Shown piece after piece: positions 8,369 to 32,502 of a stretch of DNA of 32,502 bases. A program made the position numbers and the translations under genes. This DNA is from Actinomycetales bacterium Ga0077552. GTDB lineage: Bacteria > Actinomycetota > Actinomycetes > Actinomycetales > Microbacteriaceae. Each line of letters opens with the position of its first letter. The stretch's first letter is position 1. The DNA lies in the NCBI GenBank assembly GCA_001464255.1, contig LNFD01000238.1, forward strand, positions 1 to 32,502, written 5' to 3'. The notes below the pieces were generated by a model. It was not told the DNA's origin and ran no database searches. It saw nothing but the letters and a program-made list of their open reading frames with translations.

Positions 8369-8866
8369 CTACCAGCCCCAGGTGCCCGTGCCGCCCTTGA
8401 ACGGCCCGACGATGTTCGCCGTGATCCAGCCGCCGTAGAAGCCGCCCTCCTGGGGCGTGACGGTCTCGCCGTCAACCGTGCAGCGATACATGCGCCCGGG
8501 GTACACCGAGACGAAGCCCGCGATCGGCTCGAAGCCCCGGCTCGGGCTCGGGTAGTACCAGCCCGCGCCGGGGGCGACGGTCTCGCCGCCGACGATGTCG
8601 TAGTACGCCGCGCGGCCCTTGAACTCGCAGAACGACGAGCCCTCGGCGGGCACGAGCGCGCCCGCGACGAAGTCCTCCGGCGGCAGGTAGTAGGCGGGCG
8701 GATGACTCGTCTCGAGCACGCGCATCGCGCGGGTCGTGTCGGCGATCAGCCGACCGCCGAGCTCGATCGTGACGCGGGCGCGCACGGGCTCGACCCGCGG
8801 CGGGCGGGGATAGTCCCACACCGACTCCTGGCCCGGCCCGGGCTCGATGCGCTTCGGTCGCGCCAT
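8369..8866 (-). CDS. DUF427 domain protein
   Basis: LGGRLIADTTRAMRVLETSHPPAYYLPPEDF...FCEFKGRAAYYDI...VYPGRMYRCTVDGETVTPQEGGFYGGW. Confidence 0.88.
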   Translation of the reverse strand: MARPKRIEPGPGQESVWDYPRPPRVEPVRARVTIELGGRLIADTTRAMRVLETSHPPAYYLPPEDFVAGALVPAEGSSFCEFKGRAAYYDIVGGETVAPGAGWYYPSPSRGFEPIAGFVSVYPGRMYRCTVDGETVTPQEGGFYGGWITANIVGPFKGGTGTWGW

Positions 8867-8875
8867 GATCGCGGC

Positions 8876-9445
8876 CTAGAACCCGAAGTCGCCGAAGTCG
8901 CCGAACCCGCCGCCGTCGAAACCGCCCGCGTCGGCGCCGCCGTCGAACCCGCCGGCGTCGCCCCCCGCATCCGCCCCGGCGTCGGTTGCACCGGTATCCG
9001 CCGCGCCCGCGTCGGTCGCGCCCGCGTCGAACGGCGGCAGGAAGGCGCTCGCGAGCGCTGAGCCGATGACGTAGCCGGCGACCGTGCCGAGCAGCGAGGC
9101 GCCGACCATCTGGCCGAACGAGGGCCCCGCGAGCGAGCGCTCCATCGTGCCGGGCTGGCGCAGCTCCGAGCGCGTCGCGGCTCGCGCGAGCGTGGCAGGC
9201 TGGTCGTCGAGGGGCGCCTCGCCCGCGGGCGCCGTGCGCGCGAGCTCGTCGAAGACGAGGCGGCGCTGCTCGGGGCTGAGCTTCTCGAAGGCCTCGGCGT
9301 GAACCTGCTCGATCGTCTCAGGGGGCGCCGTCTGCAGCAGGTAGCGGTAGCGCTCCACGGCGCGCTCGTCGTCACCGCGGGGGGCGGCGCGGCGCGCCTC
9401 GGGCTCGGGCGTGGGGGCGCCGAAGAGTCGGTCGAAGAAGCTCAT
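8876..9445 (-). CDS. Hypothetical protein with low-complexity Gly/Ala/Asp-rich C-terminus
   Basis: MSFFDRLFG...; ATG 9445 with AGGAGAG RBS; tail FDAGATDAGAADTGATDAGADAGGDAGGFDGGADAGGFDGGGFGDFGDFGF. Confidence 0.8.
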   Translation of the reverse strand: MSFFDRLFGAPTPEPEARRAAPRGDDERAVERYRYLLQTAPPETIEQVHAEAFEKLSPEQRRLVFDELARTAPAGEAPLDDQPATLARAATRSELRQPGTMERSLAGPSFGQMVGASLLGTVAGYVIGSALASAFLPPFDAGATDAGAADTGATDAGADAGGDAGGFDGGADAGGFDGGGFGDFGDFGF

Positions 9446-9535
9446 GCGTCTCTCCTGGTGGGTCGGGGTGCCCACGCTAGGGCTCCTCGTTCGGTGCTGG
9501 CTGTGCAGAGCTCGTGTAACAACTCGGTGAAGGAT

Positions 9536-9551
9536 GGGGCCGTTCGGCCCC
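9536..9551. promoter_or_regulatory. GC-rich hairpin between divergent genes, upstream of the cold-shock gene
   Basis: GGGGCCG-TT-CGGCCCC perfect inverted repeat. Confidence 0.4.
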
Positions 9552-9661
9552 CGGTGCACTACTGTCAGAACCGAAGTTGATACGCCTCGGCGGTCCGAAC
9601 GTGCGGTGCAAGCAGTACGTGCTCTCGTATAGAGCAGGATTCACGAGTGGTTCGACTGGTG

Positions 9662-9678
9662 GTTTCGACAGTCGAAAC
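9662..9678. promoter_or_regulatory. Hairpin in the cold-shock 5' leader
   Basis: GTTTCGAC-A-GTCGAAAC, perfect 8-bp arms, ending 24 nt before the start codon. Confidence 0.5.
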
Positions 9679-9702
9679 TCCGTGAGTAACAAGGAGTCAG
9701 CA

Positions 9703-9906
9703 ATGACGACAGGCACTGTCAAGTGGTTCAACGCCGAAAAGGGTTTCGGTTTCATCACCCCCGATGACGGAAGCGCCGACGTGTTCGCGCACTTCTCCGC
9801 CATCCAGTCGAACGGGTACCGCTCGCTCGACGAGAACCAGAAGGTCGAATTCGACGTCGCGCAGGGCCCCAAGGGTCTGCAGGCCGAGAACATCCGCCCG
9901 CTCTAG
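9703..9906 (+). CDS. csp: Cold-shock protein (CspA family)
   Basis: [76 protein letters not shown]. Confidence 0.96.
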
Positions 9907-12007: not shown

Positions 12008-12853
12008 GTGCGCTCGACCGGTCAACTGTTCCGCTGGGGGCTCACGTGCCTGCTGCTGGCCCCCGTCGCCGGCTTCGCATGGTTCACGGCGGGCGGCTCG
12101 GGCGCCGCCACCGGGTTCCTCTGGCTCGCCCTCGCCCTCGTGCTGCTCGGCGGCGGACTCAACGCGGCGGCGATCGTGCGCGGCGTGCGTCGTGTCGGCC
12201 GGGGCGACCTCATGACGAGCCTCGACGGCATGACCGCGGCCGACCGGGCCGGCGACTTCCTCGAGGAGCCGATCGTGCCGCGGCAGCGCGTCATCCTCGT
12301 CGACGGCACGGTCGTGGGCGAGAGAGGCACCGGAACGGGGGCGGCTTCGGGCCCGGAGTCGCGCGGTCAGCGCCGCCGCGTCGGCCTCGCCGCGGCGGCG
12401 GCCCTGCTGGGCCTCGTCGCGTTCGGCGCCTACACGCTCGCCATAGAGCAGCCCCTCGCCACCGCGGAGGGCCAGCTCACGCTCGACGAGGTCTACGCCG
12501 TCTGGAACACGGCCTCGCGCGTCGGGTTCACGATCTCGCTGACCATCTGGGTGGCGCTCTCGCTCGCCATCACGCTCGGCGTCGCCGTGCTCGCGCTGCT
12601 GCCCGCGATCGCCGCCGACCGCATCCTGACGCCGCGGCGCATGCTCGCGGTCGCGTGCATCGCCGGCAGTGTCATCGTGACCGCGGCGTTCGCTCCCTAC
12701 TTCAGCGTCGGTATAAGCCTGCCCGACGACCTGCCCTTCCCCGCGGGCGGCGTGCAGAGCCCCGCGAGCCTCGCGTTCGGGCTCACGGGCGTCGCGCTCA
12801 GCGCCATCGCCATCCTCATCACGGTTCCCGACTGGCGGCGCGCACCCCGCTGA
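12008..12853 (+). CDS. Multi-TM membrane protein of unknown function
   Basis: GTG 12008; VRSTGQLFRWGLTCLLLAPVAGFAWF... several hydrophobic segments, good codon bias. Confidence 0.75.
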   Translation: MRSTGQLFRWGLTCLLLAPVAGFAWFTAGGSGAATGFLWLALALVLLGGGLNAAAIVRGVRRVGRGDLMTSLDGMTAADRAGDFLEEPIVPRQRVILVDGTVVGERGTGTGAASGPESRGQRRRVGLAAAAALLGLVAFGAYTLAIEQPLATAEGQLTLDEVYAVWNTASRVGFTISLTIWVALSLAITLGVAVLALLPAIAADRILTPRRMLAVACIAGSVIVTAAFAPYFSVGISLPDDLPFPAGGVQSPASLAFGLTGVALSAIAILITVPDWRRAPR

Positions 12854-12874
12854 CCGCCCCGCTCACCGGGGCGC

Positions 12875-12904
12875 TTGACACTCGTGCGGTTCTCTGGTTA
12901 GTTA
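12875..12904 (+). promoter_or_regulatory. Putative sigma-70-type promoter of the GntR/ABC operon
   Basis: Consensus -35 TTGACA (12875-12880), 17-18 nt spacer, weak -10 (TTAGTT/TAGTTA) at 12898-12904 overlapping a dyad. Confidence 0.55.
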
Positions 12905-12918
12905 CTTGACTAAGTAAC
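12901..12918. promoter_or_regulatory. Operator-like inverted repeat upstream of the GntR gene
   Basis: GTTACTT-GACT-AAGTAAC, perfect 7-bp arms, 21 nt before the start codon. Confidence 0.65.
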
Positions 12919-12939
12919 CAACACAGAAGGGAGGCTCGC

Positions 12940-13293
12940 GTGGACGACGGTCGACCGATCTTCCTCCAGATCGCCGAGCTGATCGAGAACCAGGTGATCG
13001 ACGGCTCGCTCGTCGAGGGCGCCCAGGTTCCCTCGATCAATGAGTTCGCGGCGTTCCACCGCATCAACCCGGCCACGGCGCTCAAGGGCATCACCCTGCT
13101 CGTCGACGCGGGCGTGCTCTACAAGCGCCGCGGCATCGGCATGTTCGTCGCCGAGGGCGCGCGGGCGCGGCTGCTCGCCGAGCGCCGAGAGCGCTTCGCC
13201 ACCGAGTACGTGCAGCCGCTCGTCGTCGAGGCGCGCGCGCTCGGGCTCACCACCGACCACCTGATCGAGATGATCCGAAAGGGCACCCCATGA
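12940..13293 (+). CDS. GntR family regulator, YtrA-like
   Basis: PIFLQIAELIENQVIDGSLVEGAQVPSINEFAAFHRINPATALKGITLLVDAGVLYKRRGIGMFV; short (117 aa), immediately upstream of ABC genes. Confidence 0.92.
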   Translation: MDDGRPIFLQIAELIENQVIDGSLVEGAQVPSINEFAAFHRINPATALKGITLLVDAGVLYKRRGIGMFVAEGARARLLAERRERFATEYVQPLVVEARALGLTTDHLIEMIRKGTP

Positions 13294-14183
13294 CCACCAT
13301 CGTCGAGGCGCGCGGCCTCACGAAGCGCTATCGCGGCATCACCGCCGTCGACGGCGTCGACTTCCAGATCGCGCGCAACAGCATCACGGGCCTGCTCGGC
13401 CGCAACGGCGCGGGCAAGACCACGCTCATGCACCTGCTCACGGGGCAGGAGTTCGCGACCGAGGGCAGCATCACCGTCGCGGGCGAGAGCCCGGTCGAGA
13501 ATCCTGCTGTGCTCCAGCACACGTGCTTCATCAAGGAGAGCCAGCGCTACCCCGACGACTTCAAGCCGAAGCACGTCTTCGCGGCGGCTCCGGGCTTCTT
13601 CCCGCACTGGGATGCCGACTTCGCGCGCGAGCTCGCCGCCGAGTTCCGGCTGCCGGTCGACCGCCGCATCAAGAAGCTCTCGCGCGGTCAGCTGTCGAGC
13701 GTCGGCATCATCGTCGGGCTCGCCGCGCGGGCGCCGATCACGATCTTCGACGAGCCCTACCTCGGCCTCGACGCGATCGCGCGGCAGGCCTTCTACGACC
13801 GCCTGCTCGCCGACTACGCCGCGCACCCGCGCACGGTCATCCTCTCGACCCACCTCATCGATGAGGTCGCCGACCTGCTCGAGCACGCGCTCGTCATCGA
13901 CAACGGGCGCATCCTCATCGATTCGCCGGTGGATGCCCTGCGCTCCCACGCCGCCACCATCGCCGGCCCGGCCGAGGCCGTCGAGCAGGCGGTCGCGGGC
14001 CTCGAGGTGATCCACCGCGAGCGCCTGGGCGGATTCGTCAGCGCGACGGTCGCCGGCGACACCGAGGCCGCCGCGGGCCGCGCCCGCGCGGCGGGCCTCG
14101 AGGTCGGGCCGGTCTCGCTGCAGCAGCTCATCATCCGCCAGACCGGCGGCACCCCCACCGAGCACGAGGAGGTCTCGCGATGA
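13290..14183 (+). CDS. ABC transporter ATP-binding protein
   Basis: Walker A GRNGAGKTT, signature LSRGQLSSV, Walker B ITIFDEPYLGLD; overlaps the GntR stop by 4 nt. Confidence 0.92.
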   Translation: MTTIVEARGLTKRYRGITAVDGVDFQIARNSITGLLGRNGAGKTTLMHLLTGQEFATEGSITVAGESPVENPAVLQHTCFIKESQRYPDDFKPKHVFAAAPGFFPHWDADFARELAAEFRLPVDRRIKKLSRGQLSSVGIIVGLAARAPITIFDEPYLGLDAIARQAFYDRLLADYAAHPRTVILSTHLIDEVADLLEHALVIDNGRILIDSPVDALRSHAATIAGPAEAVEQAVAGLEVIHRERLGGFVSATVAGDTEAAAGRARAAGLEVGPVSLQQLIIRQTGGTPTEHEEVSR

Positions 14184-28336: not shown

Positions 28337-29284
28337 GTGACGGTGCCCGCCCTGCCGCAGCTCGCCGCGGACCTCTACCTAACCGACGGCGGCCTCGAGA
28401 CCACGCTCATCTTCCACGACGGGCTCGACCTGCCCGACTTCGCGGCCTTCCCGCTGCTCGAGCACGACGACGGCCGCGGGGCGCTCGAACGCTACTACCG
28501 CGCGTACCTCGACATCGCGCGGCGGCACGGCACCGGGCTCGTGCTCGAGACGCCGACGTGGCGCGCGAGCGCCGACTGGGGCCGACGGCTCGGCTACAGC
28601 GCGGCCGCCCTGCGCACCCTCAACATCGCCGCGGTCGAGCACCTGCGGCGGCTGCGCGACGCCCACGGCCAGGGGCAGCCGCCCGTCGTCATCAGCGGCA
28701 ATCTCGGCCCGCGCGGCGACGGCTACTCTCCGACGACCGTCATGACCCCGATCGAGTCGGCGGCGTACCACAGCGAGCAGATCAGGGCCCTCGCCGATGG
28801 CGGCGCCGACCTCATCACGGCGCTCACCATCACGCACGTCGACGAGGCGATCGGCATCGTGCGGGAGGCCGTCGAGCACGGCATGCCGGTCGTCATCTCG
28901 TTCACGGTCGAGACCGACGGCACGCTGCCGAGCGGGCAGCCGCTCGCCGAGGCCATCGCCGAGCTCGACGAGGCGACCGCCGCCAGTGCGGCGTACCTCA
29001 TGGTGAACTGCGCGCATCCGAGCCACTTCGCCGACGTACTCGACCCCGCGTCGGAGGAGCTCGGGCGCATCCGCGGCATCCGTGCCAACGCCTCGACCCT
29101 CAGCCACGCCGAGCTCGACGAGGCGGACGAGCTCGACGCGGGCGACCCCGTCGCGCTCGCGGGGCTGTACCGCGAGCTGCTGGCCCTGCTGCCGAACCTC
29201 ACGGTCATGGGCGGATGCTGCGGCACCGACGACCGCCACATCGAGGCGATCGCGGCGGAGTGCGCGCCGCTGCTGCCGCGCTGA
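28337..29284 (+). CDS. Homocysteine S-methyltransferase family protein
   Basis: LTDGGLETTLIFHDGLDLPDFAAFPLL...ISGNLGPRGDGY...VMGGCCGTDDRHIEAIA zinc-binding GGCCGT. Confidence 0.92.
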   Translation: MTVPALPQLAADLYLTDGGLETTLIFHDGLDLPDFAAFPLLEHDDGRGALERYYRAYLDIARRHGTGLVLETPTWRASADWGRRLGYSAAALRTLNIAAVEHLRRLRDAHGQGQPPVVISGNLGPRGDGYSPTTVMTPIESAAYHSEQIRALADGGADLITALTITHVDEAIGIVREAVEHGMPVVISFTVETDGTLPSGQPLAEAIAELDEATAASAAYLMVNCAHPSHFADVLDPASEELGRIRGIRANASTLSHAELDEADELDAGDPVALAGLYRELLALLPNLTVMGGCCGTDDRHIEAIAAECAPLLPR

Positions 29285-29293
29285 CCCCGGCTC

Positions 29294-29809
29294 TCAGTCG
29301 AGCAAGGCGAGCAGCGCGTCGACAGTGCGCAGGTTGCGGGCCGTGCCGACGACGCCGAGCGCGCGCAGCAGTCGGGTGAGGTCGAGCTCGGCGCGGCCGG
29401 CGCCGTTCGCGTAGCGCACGTGCAGGTCGTCGCCGATGACAGCCCACTCGTCGGCTCCGCGCGGTACGTCGGCGGCCGCGCGGGGGTCGGGCGCGCCGCT
29501 CAGCGGCACGAGGTACGAGAAGGCCGGGTCGACGATGGCGAAGGGATGCGCATCCCGCGCCGCGCGCAGCGCCGCCGCATCGCGCACGATGACCTCGCGG
29601 CGGAACCCGAATCGGGTCTCGACCGCGTCTTCGAGGGCGCGCGCGAAGGCGAGCGGGTCGCCCGTCGGTGTGGCGATGAGGTTGCCCGAGGCGATGTAGG
29701 CCTGCACGTCGGTGGCGCCGAGCTCGGTGGCGAGCGCGCGCAGCTCGGCCATCGGCAGCTTCGCGGTGCCGCCGACGTTGACGGCGCGGAACAGGAAGAC
29801 GTGCGTCAC
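29294..29809 (-). CDS. DUF1697 family protein
   Basis: FLFRAVNVGGTAKLPMAELRALATELGATDVQAYIASGNLIA...GTARNLRTVDALLAL. Confidence 0.93.
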   Translation of the reverse strand: MTHVFLFRAVNVGGTAKLPMAELRALATELGATDVQAYIASGNLIATPTGDPLAFARALEDAVETRFGFRREVIVRDAAALRAARDAHPFAIVDPAFSYLVPLSGAPDPRAAADVPRGADEWAVIGDDLHVRYANGAGRAELDLTRLLRALGVVGTARNLRTVDALLALLD

Positions 29810-30129
29810 GAGACGTCGACCAGTTCGATGTGCACGCGCGCCTCATCGCCCGCGCTCAGCCCCTCGGCCTGCCGCACGGCCTTCTTCACCGGCAGCACGT
29901 AGGCCTGCTGCTTCGAGTCGGGGAACAGGCTCGTCAGCCACTCGCTGCCACCGACACGCACGCGCACCCGCACACTGCCGAACCCGTTCGTGAGGCCGTG
30001 AGTGCGTGCGTCGATCTCGTCGCTGATCGCCACCGGAACGGTCACGAAGTGCCAGGCGGCGGGGCCCGTCCACTCGTAGAGGGCGGCCGTGAAGTCGTAG
30101 GTGGTGGTGTCGTCTGCGGATGCTCGCAC
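29806..30129 (-). CDS. DUF1905 domain protein
   Basis: YDFTAALYEWTGPAAWHFVTVPVAISDEI...GFGSVRVRVRVGGSEWLTSLFPDSKQQAYVLPVKKAVRQAEGLSAGD; GTG 30129 start. Confidence 0.9.
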   Translation of the reverse strand: MRASADDTTTYDFTAALYEWTGPAAWHFVTVPVAISDEIDARTHGLTNGFGSVRVRVRVGGSEWLTSLFPDSKQQAYVLPVKKAVRQAEGLSAGDEARVHIELVDVS

Positions 30130-30160: not shown

Positions 30161-30820
30161 CTAGGTGAGCAGCGTGATCTCGCCATCGACGACTCGCTCG
30201 ACGCGCACGACGTGACGCATGATGTCGGGCACCCCGCCGATGACGGTCAGTTCGCGCACGTCGGTCGGGCGCGTCGCCGAGGGATCCTCTCGCGCAGGGT
30301 GCGGGTACGCCGCGATCGGGGCGAAGGTCGCGCGGCTTCGTCTGCCCGGCACGTTCGGCCGCGCGAAGCCGGTGTTGATGCGCGCGAGCTCGATCGACTG
30401 CTCGTAGGTCTCGATCAGGGTGGCCGTATCCACCGAGATGATCACGCAGGGCTTCTGTCGATATGCCCTGGCGTTGACCAGCTCCATCACTCGATCACGA
30501 CGGAGGAAGAAGAAGACCCGCTCGTTCAAGAGAGCGAGCCACTCCTGCACTGACAGCCCGTCCAAGCGCTCGCTCAGTGTCGGCTCGTGCAGAGGCCCCT
30601 GGTCCCGGACGACCGCCTTGCCGTGCTGCGGGTGCTCGAGCACAGTTGACCTCGCACGAACGGTTGTCAACAGCTCACGTCGGGTCGGTTCCTCGACCTC
30701 CCACCGGTCGAGCAGCCCCTTCGTGCTGAGCAGCCCGTGCTCGCGAATGGTCGGCCAGCTGCCGTCGGCCGCGGTGTGGAACAGCGTCGGGTAGAGGCGC
30801 ACGAGGTCGGCAGTGAGCAC
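30161..30820 (-). CDS. DUF7002-like protein, possible ADP-ribosyltransferase-like fold
   Basis: LVRLYPTLFHTAADGSWPTIREHGLLSTKGLLDRWEV...VRELTVIGGVPDIMRHVVRVERV; family name from memory of the motif. Start 30820 (GTG) or 30847 (ATG). Confidence 0.65.
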   Translation of the reverse strand: MLTADLVRLYPTLFHTAADGSWPTIREHGLLSTKGLLDRWEVEEPTRRELLTTVRARSTVLEHPQHGKAVVRDQGPLHEPTLSERLDGLSVQEWLALLNERVFFFLRRDRVMELVNARAYRQKPCVIISVDTATLIETYEQSIELARINTGFARPNVPGRRSRATFAPIAAYPHPAREDPSATRPTDVRELTVIGGVPDIMRHVVRVERVVDGEITLLT

Positions 30821-30858
30821 GGGTCGACTGTAACCCGCGACAGCCATAGCCTCGACGC

Positions 30859-31029
30859 ATGGAGCCCGACACCGTCACCCCCGCCGATCTCGCCCGCGAA
30901 CTGGGCGTCACGTCGAAGTCTGTGCGCGACGTCCTGCGTGCGCACTACGGCACACTCACCCCGCCGGCGACCCGCTGGCGGGTCACGGACGAGCAGGCTC
31001 GGGCGGTGCGACAGCACTTCGCCCAATAG
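30859..31029 (+). CDS. Small HTH-like protein (56 aa)
   Basis: MEPDTVTPADLARELGVTSKSVRDVLRAHYGTLTPPATRWRVTDEQARAVRQHFAQ; below the ORF-track length cut-off. Confidence 0.65.
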   Translation: MEPDTVTPADLARELGVTSKSVRDVLRAHYGTLTPPATRWRVTDEQARAVRQHFAQ

Positions 31030-31706
31030 CCGCCCTGATCGGCGACGGCCAGCAGACCATCTACCCCGGCGGCTACTCGCTCGCCGAGGCGGGCATCTCG
31101 GTCGCCGGCCGCGGAGTCGTGCTCTCGACCAACTACCGCAACACCCGCGAGATCGCCCAGTTCGCCGCCACGATCGTCGAGGGCGACGAGTTCGTCGACC
31201 TCGAGGGCGGTCCGGGGCGGGCGGATGCTGCGCTCGACGTTCCCCGCACGGGCCCGTCGCCCGAGCTCGCGTCGTTCGAGTCTGTCGCTCTTCATGACGC
31301 CGCACTCGTGTCGCACGTGCGCACGCTGGTCGCGTCGAGCGTCGACCCCGGCGACATCGGCGTGCTGACGGCGACGAATCGGGATGCTCTCGCCATGCTC
31401 GCCGCGCTGCGCGCCGCCGGGTTCGGCGTCATCGAGTTGGAGAGCTACGCGGGCTTCGCCGCTCCCCTGGTGAAGGTCGGAACGATCAAGCGAGCCAAGG
31501 GCCTCGAGTTCAAGCAGGTGCTACTGGCGCGGGTCGATGGGTCGCTACTCTCCCCCGCTGCTTCAGGGCTCGACGAAGGCGCGCTCGAACGGCGCGAGAT
31601 CGAGCGGCGGGAGTTGTACGTCGGCATGACCCGCGCCCGCGATGGGTTGTGGGTTGGGAGAGCCAGTAACGGCGGCGTCGAAGCGCAAGGCGGATCTAGA
31701 AACTAA
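31026..31706 (+). pseudogene. 5'-truncated UvrD/Rep-like superfamily 1 helicase remnant
   Basis: IAALIGDGQQTIYPGGYSLAEAGISVAGRGVVLSTNYRNTREIAQF...VGTIKRAKGLEFKQVLLARVD...ELYVGMTRARDGLWVG: helicase C-terminal motifs with no Walker A N-terminal half upstream. Confidence 0.78.
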
Positions 31707-31720
31707 ACCAATGATGTATG

Positions 31721-31736
31721 TTCACGTTATCGTGAA
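31721..31736. promoter_or_regulatory. Operator-like inverted repeat before the AAA ATPase gene
   Basis: TTCACG-TTAT-CGTGAA, 18 nt upstream of the start codon. Confidence 0.45.
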
Positions 31737-31753
31737 GCAAGGGAGATGCGCAC

Positions 31754-32502
31754 ATGTTTCTGGAAACCCTAATCCTCGAGAACGTAAGGGGTTTTCGCAC
31801 TAGCGATGAGCCGATAAAGCTCGATTTCGCCCGGCCAGATGGGACTTACGCCGGGCTGACCGTAGTGGCCGGTCGGAACGGGAGTGGAAAATCCACGTTG
31901 TTGCGCTCCATCGCCCTCGCACTCTCTGGCCCGACTACAGCTCGGACGCTCTCGCCCGGGTTCCACGGATGGATATCCAACGGCACGCGCTCGGCCCGCG
32001 TCGAAGCCGCCTTCTCCCAAGGGCCGGCAGACGCATTCGGAACGGGAGGCGCCCCTCCGAAGACACGACCCTGGGCTGGACTGCGATGGGACCAGGAGGC
32101 CCCAACATCGTTCGTCGAGATGCAGGAGTCAATACCGAAGAGCTCTGCGAAACTGACCGCTCGACGGGGTCCCCCTTCCGGTTGGTTTCTGGCCGGCTAT
32201 GGACCCTTCCGGCGATTGAGTGGCGCGGCGGCAGAAGCACAGCGCTCGATGTTGGGCAGCAAACGCACAGCAGCGCTCGTCACGCTCTTCGATGAGTCCG
32301 CGTCACTGGCAGAGTCGACCTGGTGGCTCCAGGAGCTCTATCCGAAGAAGCTCGAGGGTGATCGGACCTCGGAAGCCATACACGAGGACATCCGTAGGAT
32401 TCTCAATGACGGATTGATGCCAGACGGCACCGAGGTCACCGATTACACATCGGAAGGGCTTCGGGTGCGTCAAGGGGGCGCGGAGCTCATCTTGGAAGAA
32501 AT
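31754..32502 (+). CDS. RecF/SMC/OLD-like AAA family ATPase, cut by the right window edge
   Basis: MFLETLILENVRGFRTSDEPIKLDFARPDGTYAGLTVVAGRNGSGKSTLLRSIALALSG...WFLAGYGPFRRLSGAAAEAQRSMLGSKRTAALVTLFDESASLAESTWWLQELYPKKLEG; Walker A GRNGSGKST; GGGAGA RBS; no stop before the edge. Confidence 0.85.
   Translation, partial: MFLETLILENVRGFRTSDEPIKLDFARPDGTYAGLTVVAGRNGSGKSTLLRSIALALSGPTTARTLSPGFHGWISNGTRSARVEAAFSQGPADAFGTGGAPPKTRPWAGLRWDQEAPTSFVEMQESIPKSSAKLTARRGPPSGWFLAGYGPFRRLSGAAAEAQRSMLGSKRTAALVTLFDESASLAESTWWLQELYPKKLEGDRTSEAIHEDIRRILNDGLMPDGTEVTDYTSEGLRVRQGGAELILEE

Follow-up and report, generated by a model that had tools for sequence, protein, structure and literature searches.

The right end of the contig analysed here raises the question whether it borders an accessory island, possibly one of defence genes, and if so, where such an island begins, what it carries and where it ends. 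The window, i.e., the whole stretch of DNA that was analysed, is an entire contig (positions 1-32502; 32,502 nucleotides) from a source genome of 2.29 Mb in 413 contigs, a bin that is 86% complete. For comparison one genome per species was used, among them 25 congeners, 24 of which were readable at the corresponding site, and the open reading frames of these relatives were predicted by means of a simple codon model built for the purpose. We read the right end, with a probability of about 0.86, as the left part of a defence hotspot that lacks an integrase and is flanked by core genes; its cargo starts with ptuA and is expected to continue with ptuB up to gatB.

Gene content and composition of the right end

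A sequence-only reading of this DNA had placed four elements within 2.3 kb at the right end, namely a DUF7002 gene, an ORF with a helix-turn-helix (HTH), a truncated helicase and a low-GC ATPase gene, and all four were recovered (Table 1). The same reading held that a segment of lower GC begins here, and this was borne out. GC content was 72.2% at positions 1-30160, 67.8% in the DUF7002-HTH segment, 69.0% in the helicase fragment and 60.7% at positions 31707-32502; 0 of the 619 same-size windows to the left of this last segment were as low. Third-position GC of the ATPase gene was 0.68 (vs. 0.85-0.96), and its host-codon score, calculated with a model trained on the window, was -0.16 compared to +0.21 to +0.45 for the neighbours tested, making it the only gene tested with a negative score. 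Segment GC and codon use thus set the border of composition at approximately 31707, the 3' end of the helicase, rather than at 30161, and the DUF7002 gene and the HTH ORF form a separate small replacement. The low-GC segment opens with a perfect 6-4-6 palindrome (TTCACG-TTAT-CGTGAA, 31721-31736), 17 bp upstream of the ATPase gene, which is possibly an operator. A role as an operator shared among loci was rejected, as the palindrome is present in a single copy in the window and the hotspot loci of the relatives.

Table 1. Features at the right end of the window, with positions counted from its first nucleotide.
Feature	Position	Strand	Evidence and remarks
Homocysteine S-methyltransferase-like gene	28337..29284	+	PF02574 E=1e-39; conserved left flank
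DUF1697 gene	29294..29809	-	PF08002 E=1e-30; conserved left flank, order conserved in congeners
DUF1905 gene	29806..30129	-	PF08922 E=3e-28; last conserved left-flank gene
DUF7002 gene	30161..30847	-	PF22531 E=4e-59, full domain
56-aa HTH-like ORF, divergent	30859..31029	+	weak matches only
NERD-UvrD helicase 3' fragment, pseudogene	31035..31706	+	UvrD_C E=1.5e-14
Start of low-GC segment	31707..31753		sequence; contains palindrome
ptuA (Septu), first 249 codons, cut by contig end	31754..32502	+	PADLOC PDLC00269 E=2e-65

The product of the low-GC gene had been described as an AAA ATPase with the motif GRNGSGKST. This Walker A motif is present, with its lysine at K46, and the profile identifies the protein as PtuA of the Septu system, residues 1-248 aligning with positions 1-255 of the 446 in PDLC00269. 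Its relatives, 36-47% identical, were actinobacterial and proteobacterial (Acrocarpospora, Herbidospora, Actinomadura, Planomonospora, two delta-proteobacterial bins, and others) and they share the motif GWFLAGYGP(F/Y)R. A PtuB-like HNH gene lay directly behind ptuA in 10 of 11 relatives, several of these pairs overlapping by 14 bp (for the pair at locus L044, the matches were E=2e-153 to PtuA and E=2e-68 to PtuB), and the missing partner in the window should therefore be PtuB. Neither ptuB nor gatB was found in the 86%-complete bin; a weak PtuB-like match on contig C291 was discarded, as the protein concerned is a common type of HNH protein of 166 aa whose gene does not adjoin a ptuA. The PtuA subfamily is rare in the host family (5 of 400 genomes at E<=1e-25, the window genome included), and the 25 congeners yielded no convincing match. 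Few of the relatives were on plasmids. None was found in phage records or viral contigs, on which ground a phage or prophage origin of ptuA was rejected.

The window gene agrees with Septu in its PtuA profile, in a Walker A motif at the expected place, and in relatives whose HNH partner gene takes its usual place; it differs in that the window shows the N-terminal 249 codons only and no PtuB. The PtuAB proteins of retron-Eco7 deplete tRNA-Tyr. Septu of E. coli B88 acts like abortive infection with reported cleavage of tRNA-Tyr, protection is lost on mutation of the Walker motifs in PtuA or of the H-N-H motif in PtuB, and the essential Walker B aspartate of EcB88 PtuA is located in the C-terminal half (PMC13096335). 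The contig stops short of this half in the window gene, so that a break in the unseen part is possible. By analogy with the Septu family, the window system would protect against phages: PtuA as the ATPase and PtuB as the nuclease would jointly destroy nucleic acid during infection, either nicked phage DNA or host tRNA depending on the member, and phage production would be stopped, often at the cost of the cell.

To the left of the helicase fragment, homology with the DNA of congeners stops at approximately 30162 (the matches to G016, G020, and G021 end at 30161-30162), and the neighbourhood of the S-methyltransferase gene is kept in G011, G016, G019, G022, and others. The DUF7002-HTH segment occupies 30162-31034, where the 5' two thirds of the helicase gene would be. 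The DUF7002 gene, which may start at 30820, has a counterpart among the 25 congeners in G022 only (60% identical); at the corresponding site this copy adjoins a further 3' piece of a helicase, and DUF7002 may thus be a recurrent passenger. Within the family it was detected in 9 of 300 genomes (E<=1e-10), in varied settings from which this HTH was absent. A two-gene module of DUF7002 and HTH was rejected, since no HTH adjoins the DUF7002 genes elsewhere. The earlier label "ART-like" for DUF7002 found no support: searches with the sequence and with an 8-sequence profile gave no relevant PDB match, and a single-sequence structure model was unusable (pLDDT 33). The 56-aa ORF is a plausible gene, with mad1 as its best PADLOC match at 22 bits and Pfam HTH-type models below the cut-off. 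A MADS system was rejected given a match of 22 bits only and no other Mad gene in sight.

The helicase fragment covers the gene for a 698-aa protein from nt 1447, or codon 483, on. It retains everything from motif III (GDGQQTIY) to the end and lacks Walker A and Walker B, and hence cannot yield a working helicase. The gene had been said to miss its N-terminal half; it is truncated, but the loss is larger, 482 of 698 codons or approximately two thirds. The 5' part was not found elsewhere in its own 86%-complete bin. Identity to the matching part of the 698-aa helicases of congeners, or to their fragments, reached 90-94%, with approximately 90% for the intact helicases, and a fragment in G020 is 94% identical and starts at the same place as that in the window, making an assembly artefact an unlikely cause of the truncation.

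A variable site in front of gatB

The gene order in congeners is ECF sigma factor, S-methyltransferase, DUF1697, DUF1905, other genes, NERD-UvrD helicase (+), cargo, and gatB-gatA-gatC (-). Not all left-flank genes are present in every congener, and the helicase is absent from 8 of the 24 readable ones. Thirteen congeneric genomes encode the 698-aa helicase (the G025 copy has its 5' end cut by a contig end), and the helicase precedes the cargo in 13. Linkage of the helicase with gatB was also seen in two further genera (G167 and G395). Across the 24 congeneric genomes the gap before gatB was filled with differing cargo of approximately 1.5-10 kb, and tblastx similarity was detected in only 21 of 300 cargo pairs. 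In most helicase-bearing genomes the cargo had a GC content of 53-61%, compared to 66-73% in the flanks.

Defence models matched the cargo in 13 of the 24 congeners: DruA with a kinase-ATPase (G001), Mrr-type and ThsB-like TIR (G004), SIR2 (G006), HEC-04 (G008), PDC-S37 (G009), BglII with MT-A70, a restriction-modification system (G011, and G022 by similarity to G011), PDC-S06 (G013), Pycsar cyclase and effector (G015), TIR (G017), GmrSD-like/NsnA (G020 and G025), and IetAS at a site without helicase (G024). Host-like genes were present in five (G003, G005, G007, G010, and G018) and unassigned genes, most of them low in GC, in six (G002, G014, G016, G019, G021, and G023). With a Septu PtuA profile in the window and defence genes at the same site in at least 13 of 24 congeners, the proposal that the sequence borders an accessory, possibly defence, island is upheld. 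The relatives also identify the flanking genes on either side, the S-methyltransferase, DUF1697, and DUF1905 genes on the left and gatB on the right; judged by this gene order, the housekeeping gene gatB probably closes the island a few kb to the right of the window. Relatives carrying both an intact helicase and the ATPase as core genes would speak against an island. The helicase was indeed intact in most of the congeners that bear it, but the ATPase was found in none. Points against the hotspot reading are the five congeners with host-like genes at the site and a contig and bin in which neither ptuB nor gatB was seen.

Ordinary decay, in which a helicase truncated at random happens to lie beside an unrelated ATPase gene and there is no island, would account for the helicase remnants that are also present in G004, G009, and G026. 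At this one site the congeners carry a dozen or so kinds of defence genes, and the composition changes at the same boundary between genes, which leaves this explanation next to no chance.

The helicase could also belong to a modular defence system as its invariant part, the gene that follows serving as a variable effector. The intact protein has a NERD-like N-terminal part and matches the PADLOC NERD+UvrD candidate C3a187 (E=1e-29), and in most helicase-bearing congeners the first gene of the cargo reads in the same direction as the helicase, mostly 5-111 bp behind it. Foreign-looking cargo was present in 17 of 17 genomes with the helicase or a remnant of it and in 3 of 8 without (Fisher p = 0.001, for categories defined post hoc and genomes that are related). 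However, several of the cargoes (Pycsar, BglII restriction-modification) are known systems in complete form, for which no helicase is required, IetAS sits at a site without one (G024), and the Pycsar and G014 genes are on the strand opposite to the helicase. Outside the genus, the helicases have ordinary neighbours in most cases, and in the window ptuA has kept its reading frame open beside a broken helicase. The likeness to C3a187 is one of domain composition in the intact helicase; the differences are that the gene is broken in the window and that the defence role is a candidate one. We consider a modular system of this kind decidedly improbable.

Fragments of the flanking genes and proposed movement of cargo

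Extra helicase 3' pieces were found in G004, G009, G020, G022, and G031, in addition to the remnants in G026. In five loci with four left partners the 5' break fell within approximately 12 bp (nt 1436-1448), immediately ahead of the codons for motif III, a clustering that would be very unlikely if breaks were distributed uniformly over approximately 2 kb. In coordinates oriented with the helicase on the plus strand, these fragments start at 31035 in the window, 7067 in L056, 9049 in L072, 10212 in L071, and ~9592 in L063, where the copy is too decayed for exact placement of the break.

The same helicase fragment is joined to a catabolic operon in L056 (G020:C3) and L072 (G004:C1:640000-658000); the operon comprises aldehyde dehydrogenase, tautomerase, and decarboxylase-like genes and an ABC transporter, and the G004 junction lies far from the hotspot. 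In L070 (G022), two copies of one 410-aa transposase-like gene were observed (8474-9706 and 12111-13343), one of which interrupts the helicase.

The breaks shared by the window, L056/L072, L071, and L063 would be explained if the helicase gene were an attachment site, at whose motif III codons an integrative element inserts and brings the cargo with it. Consistent with this, the fragments can be viewed as 3' ends left over beside a restored gene, as in G020, which has a full copy on another contig. Yet the cargo examined contained no recognisable integrase but IS transposases alone, in some loci, no direct repeat was noticed by eye at the other cargo end, and on the opposite side gatB 3' fragments form a comparable pattern, which together render an attachment site quite unlikely. 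These gatB 3'-terminal fragments lie inside or beside the cargo in L093 (G016) and L157 (G362), and thus in two genera, mirroring the helicase fragments; in G362, which belongs to another genus, they are found among low-GC genes behind the helicase. It is likewise unlikely, to a lesser degree, that the helicase gene is a dedicated landing platform, with cargo that recombines at a fixed motif III point or brings a helicase 3' end along, and that is placed behind the helicase for co-transcription.

The 3' pieces of both flanking genes fit, we infer, recombination through flanking-gene homology that leaves a partial copy behind. In this genus the 3' ends of the NERD-UvrD helicase gene (+) and gatB (-) point towards each other, and under the hotspot reading the stretch between them would be exchanged among lineages as short, low-GC defence cargo. 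The cargo in the window would consist of ptuA first and ptuB, encoding the HNH nuclease, directly next, with gatB within a few kb. The first 482 codons of the helicase are missing, with the DUF7002-HTH segment in their place, and the cargo is left untouched by this.

Relation to known hotspots

The core defense hotspots cDHS1 and cDHS2 of Pseudomonas aeruginosa, where GC content is 58.9% compared to 65.3% in the genome, resemble the present site in having conserved core flanks, diverse cargo of lower GC than the genome, no tie to one mobile element, and transposases as the commonest mobile gene (PMC10250203). Here, in another phylum, the flanks are a NERD-UvrD helicase and gatB, the cargo is approximately 1.5-10 kb whereas that of cDHS1 has a median of 26 kb, and leftover 3' pieces of the flanking genes record earlier exchanges. 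As in the integration hotspots of E. coli defence islands, defence cargo recurs between the same core genes; unlike in those, no integrase and no prophage or satellite backbone was recognised (PMC10121019). An actinobacterial survey notes defence islands and mentions neither gatB nor Septu (PMC10482375). The literature searched contained no report of a gatB-flanked defence hotspot, an absence that is not proof. Core-gene-flanked hotspots are thus a known kind, and the helicase-gatB site appears to be undescribed.

The interval from the helicase 3' end to gatB is a defined site that can be read for defence genes in any genome of the genus, and the flanking-gene fragments offer a way into the question of how small defence cassettes travel when no integrase is recognised. 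By their position, the unassigned genes in G002, G014, G016, G019, G021, and G023 are candidates for new systems.

Two observations concern cargo genes at the site. A protein of approximately 450 aa recurs in four genomes (oriented coordinates L063 8211-9557, L064 10259-11611, L098 12390-13739, and L099 13590-14939); by eye it has a possible PD-(D/E)XK motif, PDGLIR...LVEVKTG, and the L063 copy had no Pfam or PADLOC match. In G021 (L058 10288-14304 and L101 3766-7953) the cargo is long and low in GC and encodes a 1338-aa, weakly STAND-like protein, a 723-aa protein with weak similarity to a dCTPase model, and a small protein that by eye resembles adenylosuccinate synthetase; from this gene content, an undescribed system is possible.
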